DNA of 64,000 bases from Candidatus Tepidiaquacella proteinivora (GTDB lineage: Bacteria; Bacteroidota; Ignavibacteria; Tepidaquicellales; Tepidaquicellaceae), in NCBI GenBank assembly GCA_013348845.1, contig CP054675.1, positions 2,303,501 through 2,367,500 on the forward strand, read 5' to 3'. The position numbers were made by a program, and so were the translations under genes. The notes under the pieces are model-generated. The model had not been told where the DNA came from, searched no databases, and saw only the letters and a program-made list of their open reading frames with translations. This document shows positions 45,725 to 50,268 of this stretch, one piece after another (the first letter of the stretch is position 1; the number at the start of each line of letters is the position of its first letter).

Positions 45725-46702
45725 CTACTTTATTAATACAAGTTTTTTTACATCTGAAAGTAAGAATCCTTTTTGATTTATAAATTTCAGGTGATAGAAG
45801 TATGTACCAGAAGTTAAATTACCTGCATTGAAGTTAATCGAATAAATTCCTGGACTTAAATTTCCTTCATATAAATTATATAATTCTTTTCCAAGAATGT
45901 CATATAATTTTAAAGAAACCAAACCAGTTTCAGGTATGGAGAACCTGATATTTGTATTAGGGTTAAAAGGATTTGGATAATTTTGATAGAGCTGAAAGTT
46001 TTCAGGTACAGATGAGTTCTTTATTATACCTGAGGATTGTCTTAATAATAATATATATTGTAAATTACCTGCACTATCATTAGGCAAACCTGGTGTTCCT
46101 CCATAATTTGTATCAACAGCAAGATTATTATTATCAGCAAAATCTGATAGTGTCATAATAGTTGGTTTGGTAAAATGTAATGATGCACCACCAACAAGAG
46201 CACCTCCCGAAAGCGCACCACTGTAATGGGCTTTCGGCATTGGTAGCGAATTTTGATTTGCCGTTCCGTGAGATAGTCCATGAATATGAGTCGTATCAAT
46301 GGTTCTAATTTGAACTGCATCAGATGCATTTGCAATGTTAAAGATAGTTCCTCTGATATATGTTGTATCCTGTGAATTAAATTTTATGCAGATTGAAAAA
46401 TCGGATTTATTGGTATCCTGGATAAACAGTGTGGTATCAAGAGTTATTAATATAAGCAATCCACTTGGCAAATTATTCCAGTAAGAATTGTAAGTGAAAA
46501 ACAGAGGGTTTTGTGGTGAACCTCCGGCAGAAAAATCCCTGATTTGCATCCCTCTTAAATCAAGATTGTTTTGAATGACAAGTAATTCAACAAATTCTCT
46601 CTTCTGTACAAATCCATTAAAATATTCATTAACAACAATAGATTGCGCTGATAATGTTGAAGTTATTATCAGTAATATTGAGATTAAAATATATTTTTTC
46701 AT
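45725..46702 (-). CDS. Secreted lamin-tail-like protein with type IX sorting domain
   Basis: 325 residues with signal peptide (1-19, LSAQ). Residues 20-170 resemble a lamin-tail domain: it begins IVVNEYFNGFVQKREFVEL and continues LDLRGMQIRDFS, the usual INE...EFIEL...DLxGwxlxD pattern. The C-terminal 85 residues are a type A sorting domain with YQNYPNPFNPNTNIRF, ending VKKLVLIK. It follows the duplicated His-helix gene by 26 nt on the same strand, so both are probably co-expressed. Target unknown. Confidence 0.85.
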   Translation of the reverse strand: MKKYILISILLIITSTLSAQSIVVNEYFNGFVQKREFVELLVIQNNLDLRGMQIRDFSAGGSPQNPLFFTYNSYWNNLPSGLLILITLDTTLFIQDTNKSDFSICIKFNSQDTTYIRGTIFNIANASDAVQIRTIDTTHIHGLSHGTANQNSLPMPKAHYSGALSGGALVGGASLHFTKPTIMTLSDFADNNNLAVDTNYGGTPGLPNDSAGNLQYILLLRQSSGIIKNSSVPENFQLYQNYPNPFNPNTNIRFSIPETGLVSLKLYDILGKELYNLYEGNLSPGIYSINFNAGNLTSGTYFYHLKFINQKGFLLSDVKKLVLIK

Positions 46703-46728: not shown

Positions 46729-47460
46729 TTAATCAAATAAATTTTCAAGTTTCTGATATTTTGTATGCATTACTTCTACGGCAGATTTAATTTTTTCCGT
46801 GTTGTTCGTTTTAAGAACATCCTTAACTGCTTTTGTTGCCTCAATTAATTCATTAACAACAGAAAAGAATTCTTCCTTTTTTGCTTCTATTCTTTTGGAT
46901 AGTTTTCCATTTGGAATAGCTTCCGCCCTGATAATTAATTCGTCAATTAGTGGTTCTAACTCAGAAAATTTATCATAAGGAATAATTTTATGATAAATAA
47001 CATATAACACCTTATGATATTCATCCACTTCTTTCATAATGGGTTTAATTATTCTTACCATCATTTCAAAATCAGCATGTAGTTTTTCTGCTGCATCCAG
47101 TAATGCATTATTGTCACTTACTTCTGCCGCTCTGTAATATTCTTCTGCGGAATTATTTAGTTTTTTAAGTCCTTCTTCCCATTTTTCCTTTTTATCTTGA
47201 ACTATCCCTGGAAGTTTTTCATTGTTAATTTTATCAATGTGAGTTTTAATGTCAGGGACTAGGCTTTTTAATTTATCTATATCCTGGGAAGGATAAGCTT
47301 CATGCCAAATTTGATATATTACTTCGTGAAAATCAAAAAGTTCAGGAACGCTCCATTGAATTTCAGTTGAATCAATATCTACCTGAGCTTTAGAATTAAT
47401 TGAAAAACCAATAATTAAGATTAATAAATAGAAGAAAAAAATTTTTTGTTTCATTTTCAT
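46729..47460 (-). CDS. Secreted helical protein with two gapless 104-residue His-containing repeats
   Basis: 243 residues with a signal peptide (about 1-25, SKAQ). The mature protein is two copies of one all-helical unit (about 45-138 and 149-242) that align without any gap at an offset of 104: H45/H149, H53/H157, P57/P161, K82/K186, KK90-91/KK194-195 and H128/H232. In the motifs FHEVIYQIWH and YHKVLYVIYH two histidines are eight apart on one helix; the third lies on a later helix (KLH, VMH). Conserved histidines on a helical bundle suggest metal or haem binding, but no CxxCH is present. It is divergent from a NapH-like polyferredoxin. The family is not recognised. Confidence 0.75.
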   Translation of the reverse strand: MKMKQKIFFFYLLILIIGFSINSKAQVDIDSTEIQWSVPELFDFHEVIYQIWHEAYPSQDIDKLKSLVPDIKTHIDKINNEKLPGIVQDKKEKWEEGLKKLNNSAEEYYRAAEVSDNNALLDAAEKLHADFEMMVRIIKPIMKEVDEYHKVLYVIYHKIIPYDKFSELEPLIDELIIRAEAIPNGKLSKRIEAKKEEFFSVVNELIEATKAVKDVLKTNNTEKIKSAVEVMHTKYQKLENLFD

Positions 47461-47595: not shown

Positions 47596-47613
47596 TTGGC
47601 ATAGTATTTGCAA
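47596..47613 (+). promoter_or_regulatory. predicted sigma-54 promoter for the NapH-like gene
   Basis: TTGGCATAGTATTTGCAA at 47596-47613 matches the -24/-12 consensus (TGGCAC, then TTGCA), with GG and GC exactly 10 nt apart. The initiation site would be near 47623, about 10 nt before the ATG at 47633. A sigma-54-dependent activator gene lies 1.3 kb downstream (48898-50268) and is a natural candidate regulator. Confidence 0.75.
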
Positions 47614-47632: not shown

Positions 47633-48538
47633 ATGAAACTATTTAAAAAGTTTTTTTACACATTCATTATATCGTTATATCCTTTTTTGGTTATTGCTCA
47701 GGATGGAGTTGGAAAGAACCAGAGCAAGACATTTTTAGATTATCTGTTAGATTATCGTTATCTAACAATAATTATAATTTTTATCATTGGTTTGTATATT
47801 ATTTGGAATAAGAGAATGACGCTTAAGTTTCGTATTCCACTTTTATTATTTACATTTTTATTATATGGAGTTGTAGCATATTTTGTTTCTGCCATATATA
47901 TTTCTCCAAGCCCTGTTTGTGCATCTACGAAAATATTTACAATTGGGCTTAAACCCCAATTTTTTGCAACTTTAACAGTTATTGGCATTCTAAGTTTAGT
48001 TTCAACAAAAGGATTTTGTGGCTTGGTATGTCCGATAGGTGCTCTTCAAGAACTTTTTTACAGAATCCCGGGAATAAAGAAATTAAAACTAAAATTTGTA
48101 ATTACGAATTCAGTAAGAATTCTTTTGTTTATATCATTTCTGGTGGTTTTCGTCTTTGCAGGTGTTTCTTTATATAATTTTATTAATTTATTCGACTTAA
48201 TACATTGGGATTTTAATTTACCTTTTCTTGAGCTTTTCTTCTTTTTATTATTTATTGTTATTATGCTTGTTATGAGTATTTTTTTGTTTAGACCTTTCTG
48301 TTATTTAATTTGTCCGTTTGGTTTATATAGCTGGATACTCGAACAATTTTCTTTCTTAAAAATCAGAATAAGTAAAAATAAATGTAATGAGTGTGGGGTT
48401 TGTGAACAAAAAGCACCTTGCCCGGCAATAGGTGATATTTTGAAAAATAAAGTTATAAAAGCGGATTGTCATCTTTGCGGGGATTGTTTAAATCTTTGTA
48501 ATAGGGATGCTATATATTTTGGATTAAAGAAGAAATAA
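47633..48538 (+). CDS. NapH/MauN-type membrane polyferredoxin (4Fe-4S protein)
   Basis: 301 residues. A signal-like first helix (ending VIAQ) and about five further membrane helices carry two CxxxCP motifs, C129/C133-P and C223/C227-P, on the membrane side as in NapH, NosR and MauN. The C-terminus is a soluble 2[4Fe-4S] ferredoxin domain: C251, C254, C257, C263 and C279, C282, C285, C289. Such proteins pass electrons between the quinone pool and periplasmic or membrane reductases. No nap, nos or mau partner gene is nearby. A near-consensus sigma-54 promoter precedes it. Confidence 0.88.
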   Translation: MKLFKKFFYTFIISLYPFLVIAQDGVGKNQSKTFLDYLLDYRYLTIIIIFIIGLYIIWNKRMTLKFRIPLLLFTFLLYGVVAYFVSAIYISPSPVCASTKIFTIGLKPQFFATLTVIGILSLVSTKGFCGLVCPIGALQELFYRIPGIKKLKLKFVITNSVRILLFISFLVVFVFAGVSLYNFINLFDLIHWDFNLPFLELFFFLLFIVIMLVMSIFLFRPFCYLICPFGLYSWILEQFSFLKIRISKNKCNECGVCEQKAPCPAIGDILKNKVIKADCHLCGDCLNLCNRDAIYFGLKKK

Positions 48539-48548
48539 AGATAAAATA

Positions 48549-48887
48549 TTAATTTTGCTGATTTCTGCCCCAACCCCATCTATGTCTGTGTCTGTGGCGC
48601 ATACCTTTTCCAAAGGAACAATTGCTATCATTCATTAATTTTCTGTTTTTATTGTAATACCAATATTTATTTCCTCCCTTTTTTTGAGGTGGTACATAGT
48701 CAGGCTTAGAGTTATTTATTTGGGTATCTTTTACGATTTCTTTCTGGTCTTTAGGTGCAATAAATGATGTATCATTTTTATTTGTTTCTACTCTATTTTC
48801 TTCTTTGCAACTAAAGAAAATTATTAAAGTAATTAATGAAATATTTAGAACTATTTTCTTCATTAAATTATAAATTGCAATAATCAT
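48549..48887 (-). CDS. Small lipoprotein with His/Arg-rich C-terminal tail
   Basis: 112 residues from 48887, or 104 from the better start at 48863, which gives a classic lipoprotein signal with lipobox IIFFSC (Cys19). The mature part is hydrophilic with no fold recognised, and ends in RHRHRHRWGWGRN, a tail likely to bind metal ions or anionic surfaces. It lies 10 nt after the response-regulator gene on the same strand, so it belongs to the two-component operon. A weak sigma-54-like element overlaps its start region. Confidence 0.7.
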   Translation of the reverse strand: MIIAIYNLMKKIVLNISLITLIIFFSCKEENRVETNKNDTSFIAPKDQKEIVKDTQINNSKPDYVPPQKKGGNKYWYYNKNRKLMNDSNCSFGKGMRHRHRHRWGWGRNQQN

Positions 48888-48897
48888 ACCTTATTTT

Positions 48898-50268
48898 TTA
48901 CTTTTTCAACCCCCATTTTTCAAGCCTATATCTTAAATTTCGTTCAGAAATGCCGAGTTTTCTTGCTGCTTTTGATTGGTTACCACCAGCTTCCTTTAAT
49001 GCATCAAATATTAATTTTTTTTCAAAGTTTTCTACCCTTTCTGTAAAACTCATATTTTCATCATCTATAAAATCAACTTTTTCTTTTTGCATCTGTTTTA
49101 CATTTGAAGGTAAATCTTCAGTTGTTATTAATTCACCCCTTGATAACACAAGGGAATGATGTATTATATTTTCAAGTTCTCTGACATTACCAGGGTAGTT
49201 ATATTTTAAAAGTAAATCGATTGCTTCTTTTGAAAATTCCACTTTACTTCTGTTTGTTTCCTGAATATATTTTTTTAGGAAATAATCAATCAATGGTAAT
49301 ATATCTTCTTTTCTTTCTCTTAAAGGTGGTATGTGTATGGTAATAACATTCAAACGGTAATACAAATCTTCTCTGAATTTCCCTTCATTTATAAGTTCTT
49401 CAATATTTTTATTTGTGGCTGAAATAATCCTGACATCTGTATGTATTGTTTGTGTTCCCCCAACTCTTTCAAATTGTCCTTCCTGCAGGACTCGTAATAA
49501 TTTAACCTGTGTTTGTAATGGTAAATCGCCAACTTCATCTAAAAACAATGTTCCTTTATCTGCTAATTCAAACCTCCCTAATTTTTGTCTGTCAGCCCCT
49601 GTAAAAGCTCCCTTCTCATGACCAAACATTTCACTTTCAAGTAGATTTTCGTTTAAAGCTGCGCAATTTACAGCTATAAATGGTTGGTCTTTTCTCTGAC
49701 TTGTAAAATGAATAGCTTTTGCAAGTACTTCTTTACCACTGCCGCTCTCACCCCTTATCAGTATAGTAGCCTTACTCTGAGCAACTCTTCCAGCTAAATT
49801 TACAATTTCTTGCATTTTTTTGGAAAATGCAATCAGATTGGGAAGATTATATTTTTCATCTAATATGTTTCTTAATTTTTCATTTTCAGAAATTAAAGTT
49901 TTCCTTTCAACAATTCTTTTTAATATAATTTCTAATTCATCAAGATTTATAGGCTTTGTTATAAAATCAAAGGCTCCTTCTTTCATTATTTCAACGGCGG
50001 TTTCTACGGTTCCGTAAGCTGTGAATAAAATAAAATAAATTTCAGGATTTATTTTCTTTATTGTTTTAAATAACTCGAGCCCGGTTTTATCTGGCATTTG
50101 ATAATCACTTAAAACTATATCTATAATATTACTATTTATAATATTGATTGCTTTATCAGCAGATTCCGCCTCGTAAACTAAATAACCAATATTTTTTAAG
50201 TGTCCGGATAGAGTAATTCTTTGTGGGGCTTCATCATCTACTACTAAAATTGAGATTTTATTTTTCAT
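48898..50268 (-). CDS. NtrC-family sigma-54-dependent response regulator
   Basis: 456 residues. Receiver domain with phospho-acceptor D55 (VLSDYQMPD); AAA+ domain with Walker A GESGSGKE at 173-180 and the sigma-54 contact loop GAFTGA at 220-225; arginine-finger region YYRLNVITIHIPPLRER; C-terminal Fis-type helix-turn-helix (NQSKAARKLGISERNLRYRL). It activates sigma-54 promoters when phosphorylated. Overlaps its kinase gene by 4 nt. Likely targets include the sigma-54 promoter at 47596 nearby. Confidence 0.96.
   Translation of the reverse strand: MKNKISILVVDDEAPQRITLSGHLKNIGYLVYEAESADKAINIINSNIIDIVLSDYQMPDKTGLELFKTIKKINPEIYFILFTAYGTVETAVEIMKEGAFDFITKPINLDELEIILKRIVERKTLISENEKLRNILDEKYNLPNLIAFSKKMQEIVNLAGRVAQSKATILIRGESGSGKEVLAKAIHFTSQRKDQPFIAVNCAALNENLLESEMFGHEKGAFTGADRQKLGRFELADKGTLFLDEVGDLPLQTQVKLLRVLQEGQFERVGGTQTIHTDVRIISATNKNIEELINEGKFREDLYYRLNVITIHIPPLRERKEDILPLIDYFLKKYIQETNRSKVEFSKEAIDLLLKYNYPGNVRELENIIHHSLVLSRGELITTEDLPSNVKQMQKEKVDFIDDENMSFTERVENFEKKLIFDALKEAGGNQSKAARKLGISERNLRYRLEKWGLKK

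Follow-up and report, generated by a model that had tools for sequence, protein, structure and literature searches.

We found that a 243-residue protein encoded in the window, the 64,000-nucleotide stretch of DNA from Candidatus Tepidiaquacella proteinivora analysed here, is a predicted exported tandem of two four-helix domains of one unnamed, possibly metal-binding family. Three histidines recur in each domain. The pattern is genuine, old and strictly kept, in a domain that has no name but whose fold is a known one; the functions discussed below are those we infer for it. The fold is common, but histidines that stay invariant after a tandem duplication, in several phyla and where the domain is joined to superoxide dismutase (SOD) set it apart as undescribed. 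As it is missing from curated family models, proteins that carry it would be labelled hypothetical, and no description of the family was found in the open-licence papers searched.

Tandem repeat and its conservation

The reading frame, the two repeats and the codons of the residues discussed most often lie on the minus strand at the following window positions.

46729..47460, minus strand: ORF of the two-repeat protein (P0001), 243 amino acids, ATG start
47383..47460, minus strand: N-terminal export signal, residues 1-26 (MKMKQKIFFFYLLILIIGFSINSKAQ), hydrophobic, read from sequence
47041..47352, minus strand: repeat 1, residues 37-140, delimited from the AlphaFold2 models
46732..47040, minus strand: repeat 2, residues 141-243, delimited from the AlphaFold2 model
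47326..47328, minus strand: H45 codon, repeat 1 helix 1, invariant in 86 sequences
47302..47304, minus strand: H53 codon, repeat 1 helix 1, invariant in 86 sequences
47086..47088, minus strand: E125 codon, repeat 1 helix 4, invariant in 86 sequences
47077..47079, minus strand: H128 codon, repeat 1 helix 4, invariant in 86 sequences
47065..47067, minus strand: E132 codon, repeat 1 helix 4, invariant in 86 sequences; His in 28 of 28 single-repeat relatives
47014..47016, minus strand: H149 codon, repeat 2 helix 1, invariant in 86 sequences
46990..46992, minus strand: H157 codon, repeat 2 helix 1, invariant in 86 sequences
46765..46767, minus strand: H232 codon, repeat 2 helix 4, present in 85 of 85 sequences reaching the position

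Residues 45-138 and 149-242 aligned at an offset of 104 without gaps (19 of 94 positions identical), and the best ungapped self-match scored 101 (BLOSUM62), whereas 1,000 shuffled versions averaged 30.7 and peaked at 62. Profiles built from repeat 1 and repeat 2 were matched by hhalign over 101 gap-free columns (probability 99.1%, E = 6e-19). These results confirm the tandem duplication at a constant offset that had been proposed in a preliminary description, and the gap-free alignment recovers the pairings named there (H45/H149, H53/H157, H128/H232, P57/P161 and K90/K194). Its term “gapless” is accurate for the window protein but not family-wide, as some relatives carry a 3-residue insertion in repeat 2. 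The N-terminal signal is in line with the export claimed for the protein, which contains no Cys.

Of the 294 genomes that we sampled in its class, 57 carry the two-repeat gene. A scan of GTDB contigs returned 136 candidate relatives of the two-repeat protein, 80 of which were fetched; going by their record titles, they come from Ignavibacteria, Bacteroidales, Aminicenantes, other Acidobacteria and some further groups. We assessed conservation on 86 distinct two-repeat sequences, with identity to the query among the aligned set ranging from 33 to 71%. H45, H53, H128, H149 and H157 were constant in all 86, and H232 was present in all 85 that reach its position, the remaining sequence ending earlier at a contig edge, such that the three invariant histidines per repeat noted in the single protein extend across phyla. 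L41, W52, E125, E132, R136, P140 and Y153 were kept as strictly as the histidines, and R136, P140 and E144, at the repeat junction, were about as invariant, while K90 (84 of 86) and K194 (72 of 86) were less strictly kept. The invariant glutamates of repeat 1, E125 and E132, had not been part of the preliminary description. Repeat 1 carries the pattern H-x7-H plus E-x2-H-x3-E and repeat 2 the pattern H-x7-H plus [E/D]-x2-H-x3-Q, with Glu or Asp at position 229 (E229) in 69 of 86 sequences and mostly Gln at position 236 (Q236). Because the acids of repeat 1 are lost in repeat 2, the repeats are not equivalent. Relatives of the protein were absent from the viral contigs and plasmids searched.

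Predicted fold and comparison with known families

AlphaFold2 modelled the protein with a pLDDT of 92.6 and a pTM of 0.79 from a 44-sequence alignment, and repeat 1 alone with a pLDDT of 94.8 and a pTM of 0.88. Four helices were predicted per repeat, spanning residues 39-55, 61-79 (broken at 67), 85-113 and 117-138 in repeat 1 and residues 143-159, 165-184, 195-216 and 221-240 in repeat 2. In these models each repeat is an up-down four-helix bundle of the cytochrome c'/b562/PsbQ fold, consistent with the earlier statement that the protein is all-helical. The predicted helices also place H45 and H53 on helix 1 and H128 on helix 4, as expected from the proposal that two histidines share one helix and the third sits on another.

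Among solved structures, both repeats scored highest against PsbQ/PnsL-type photosystem/NDH subunits (PDB 9grx, 1nze, 3ls1), with a PnsL-type NDH subunit (9grx chain 6) giving Z = 14.2 for repeat 2 and Z = 13.2 for repeat 1. Cytochrome c' (PF01322; PDB 6a3l, 4d4n) matched repeat 2 with Z = 13.2 (rmsd 2.0, 101 residues) and repeat 1 with Z = 11.2, and cytochrome b562 (PDB 4er9) matched repeat 2 with Z = 12.1 (rmsd 2.2, 97 residues) and repeat 1 with a Foldseek TM of 0.71 to the target. Z values of this size are common for helical bundles and therefore indicate a shared arrangement, not kinship, and searches of the PDB by sequence with two-repeat and single-repeat profiles gave no convincing match. 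For the PsbQ/PnsL-type subunits, no sequence match to the window protein was found, and the likeness is one of fold, with Z values in a range that unrelated helical bundles can also reach. The cyanobacterial PsbQ entry 3ls1 is titled as a Zn2+ complex.

The two-repeat protein fell under every cut-off in Pfam and NCBIfam, which agrees with the earlier remark that no family with this pattern is known. Sub-cut-off Pfam matches were to Cytochrom_B562 in 26 of 44 members (best E = 1.3e-5) and to Cytochrom_C_2 in 12 of 44. The window protein resembles cytochrome b562 (PF07361; 20.6 bits, below the cut-off of 30) in being a predicted exported up-down four-helix bundle of ~105 residues per domain, with a helix-4 His and a helix-1 partner on equivalent faces. 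The two differ in that the iron ligands of cytochrome b562 are a helix-1 Met and a His towards the end of helix 4, whereas each window repeat has two His on helix 1 and one on helix 4, at positions shifted by one to two turns as judged from alignment end-points; the window protein is also duplicated and has Glu near the helix-4 His. Cytochrome c', for which the window protein is likewise below the Pfam cut-off, carries a CxxCH haem attachment on helix 4 that the Cys-free window protein cannot have. The lack of Cys also led us to drop c-type haem and copper storage by Cys residues (Csp) as candidates. EfeO/imelysin was dropped because one of 44 members matched the EfeO iron-uptake model NF041757, against which the window protein scored 18.2 bits (cut-off 270).

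Single-domain relatives and readings of the histidine site

Profile searches recovered single-repeat homologues in other Bacteroidota, at E-values down to 1e-10 with the two-repeat profile. All 28 sequences read keep the three shared histidines and have one more where the two-repeat form has E132 (H-x7-H ... H-x3-H); this single-repeat family with a fourth His is new here. Neither Pfam nor NCBIfam gave an assignment for the bundle region. The proteins are as long as one repeat and predicted to be exported, often with a Cys after the fourth His, and several end in His-rich tails such as HGDHHDHKH. They are homologous to the two-repeat form and share its three histidines and export, but have one domain and a fourth His where the two-repeat form has two domains with E132 and Q236. 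The window protein fits the H-x7-H / H-x3-[HEQ] four-helix domain that we define here in its three histidines, length, signal and profile homology. Given that the position is His in every single-domain sequence and Glu in the two-repeat form, E132 looks like the site of a His/Glu ligand swap.

In four of the single-domain relatives the bundle is the C-terminal domain of a secreted Fe/Mn superoxide dismutase (L153, confirmed by Pfam; L190, L192 and L193, read from sequence), and in L191 (5785-6933, minus strand) a DJ-1/PfpI domain is followed by a four-His bundle. Gene neighbours, counted by inspection without a control set, were YHS and SCO1/SenC for L190, a sub-threshold YHS gene for L201, MbnP with CCP_MauG for L199 and L191 (in L191 a di-haem peroxidase-like gene, with MauG assigned by reading) and a metal-efflux-like gene set for L153, while other single-domain genes adjoin housekeeping genes (purine, phospholipid, cysteinyl-tRNA). 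A small CKG[QT]C-type protein is encoded near L190, L191, L199, L202 and L203, with DUF2911 in four of the five.

In a tree of 72 repeats, repeat 1 formed a single clade (99/99), and the single-domain sequences formed a weakly supported group (66/73). The single clade of repeat 1 makes one ancient duplication likely, and this is also the most economical account of the tree, although its long branches leave the sequence of events uncertain.

In helical wheels computed over the alignment, with angles taken from the hydrophobic moment of each helix, H45 fell at +67 degrees, H128 at +87 degrees, and their repeat-2 counterparts H149 and H232 at +68 and +90 degrees. The equivalent His pair of the single-domain relatives lay at +68 and +78 degrees, and the iron ligands of E. 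coli cytochrome b562, M7 and H102, at +65 and +93 degrees. M7 and H102 are the pair that meets at one iron in cytochrome b562, and the faces occupied by H45 and H128 therefore agree with those of such a pair. H53, E125 and E132 were nearer the surface, at +127 to +147 degrees. Structural-alignment end-points suggest that L41 and V135 occupy the ligand positions of cytochromes b562 and c', which would put the histidines one to two turns deeper. With a coarse model of helices 1 and 4, placing the residues at one point depended on the bundle handedness assumed, and the helix-face analysis of the predicted bundle is compatible with convergence of the histidines. The metal or non-covalent haem site imagined in the preliminary description fits the fold, given that cytochromes c' and b562 rank among its nearest structural matches and that H45/H128 occupy faces equivalent to those of M7/H102.

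The most likely reading, held tentatively and at slightly less than an even chance, is that each bundle has a transition-metal site between its helices 1 and 4: one variable position swaps between His, Glu and Gln, the SOD and DJ-1 fusions and the His-rich tails suggest metal, and H128 has a polar environment. Also in favour are the invariance of the six His, E125 and E132, the b562-like faces of H45 and H128, and the SCO1/SenC, YHS, MbnP with CCP_MauG or metal-efflux-like genes next to some single-domain genes. The groove would be lined by H45 and H53 (H149 and H157 in repeat 2) from helix 1 and by H128 (H232) from helix 4, along with the residue four positions after the helix-4 His, a position at which repeat 1 has Glu, repeat 2 mostly has Gln and the single-domain forms have His. 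We infer that these residues meet at one site, where a transition-metal ion might be held by H-x7-H of one helix and H-x3-[H/E] of the other. Single-domain forms would bind through four His, with copper the probable metal in the aerobic relatives among the Bacteroidota. In the anaerobe-type two-domain form, His and Glu would make up the site of repeat 1, and the site of repeat 2 would be a reduced one. The protein may bind, buffer or hand over metal outside the cytoplasm. Against a metal stand the position of H53, E125 and E132 towards the surface, the lack of a conserved metal-related neighbourhood around the two-repeat form, and the confinement of copper-linked contexts to one part of the single-domain family. 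The window’s genome has one HMA-type domain and gave no match to COX1, which makes a need for copper in this organism doubtful. Were copper or another transition metal bound, the protein would add to the metal handling of bacteria in which such proteins are poorly known. We also hold as a reasonable possibility, short of a favoured conclusion, that a periplasmic metal site on a b562/c' bundle, all-His in the single-domain and His/Glu in the two-domain form, is a new architecture that serves as a module attached to SOD and that became, through one ancient duplication, a two-site carrier in Ignavibacteria, Bacteroidales and Acidobacteriota.

The same bundle could instead hold a non-covalent b-type haem in each repeat, as in cytochrome b562 with His/His ligation one to two turns deeper, making the protein a bis-His relative of cytochrome b562 that would act outside the cytoplasm as an electron carrier with two haems, as a haem carrier or as a gas sensor; we consider this rather unlikely. 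Cytochrom_B562 is the commonest sub-cut-off match, with Cytochrom_C_2 next, but no member reaches the Pfam cut-off, and while cytochromes c' and b562 match both repeats, haem-free PsbQ/PnsL-type bundles score equal or higher. The helix faces that carry H45 and H128 correspond to those of M7 and H102, yet the iron-ligand positions themselves fall on L41 and V135, not on His, as judged by alignment end-points. The polar residues around H128 (E125, E132, R136) would be unusual in a haem pocket, and a haem would account neither for the third His nor for the alternation of His and Glu at position 132.

The conserved residues might also serve no cofactor, forming a packing or hydrogen-bonding interface between the bundles, a dimer interface of single domains or a PsbQ-like docking surface for a partner. 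The near-invariance of the junction residues R136, P140 and E144, the many other invariant residues that are not His and the non-catalytic nature of the best fold matches, the PsbQ/PnsL-type subunits, would all suit such a role. It is nevertheless unlikely, as both repeats keep the three-His spacing and so do the single-domain proteins, which lack a second repeat and have a fourth His, and as the His-rich tails and SOD fusions point to metal. Catalysis by His and Glu, in a hydrolase or oxidoreductase of unknown type, would account for the invariant His, Glu, Arg, Lys, Tyr and Trp of repeat 1, but seems very improbable for a plain four-helix bundle without a recognisable pocket motif, and the persistence of the pattern in single domains fused to SOD better fits an accessory domain.

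Gene surroundings of the two-repeat form

Clustering by similarity at 80 two-repeat loci revealed no conserved partner beyond close relatives, in which the two-repeat gene follows genes for a histidine kinase, a sigma-54 response regulator and a small lipoprotein. Because the conserved partners are found only among close relatives, synteny gives no function. In the window, a small lipoprotein-like ORF (48549-48887, minus strand) ends in MRHRHRHRWGWGRNQQN and has no Pfam family, and a relative of it lies upstream of the two-repeat gene in several closely related genomes (L033, L035, L036, L038, L039 and L040). The next gene downstream of the two-repeat gene (45725-46702, minus strand), across a 26 bp gap, encodes a type IX secretion C-terminal sorting domain. 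We also observed a sigma-54-like promoter match with one mismatch, TGGCATAGTATTTGCA (47597-47612, plus strand), which may be due to chance since ~4 one-mismatch sites occur in the whole window. Its end is separated by 20 bases from the start codon (ATG) of a NapH/NosR-like ferredoxin gene (47633-48538, plus strand), and a sigma-54-type response regulator gene (48898-50268, minus strand) lies close to it.
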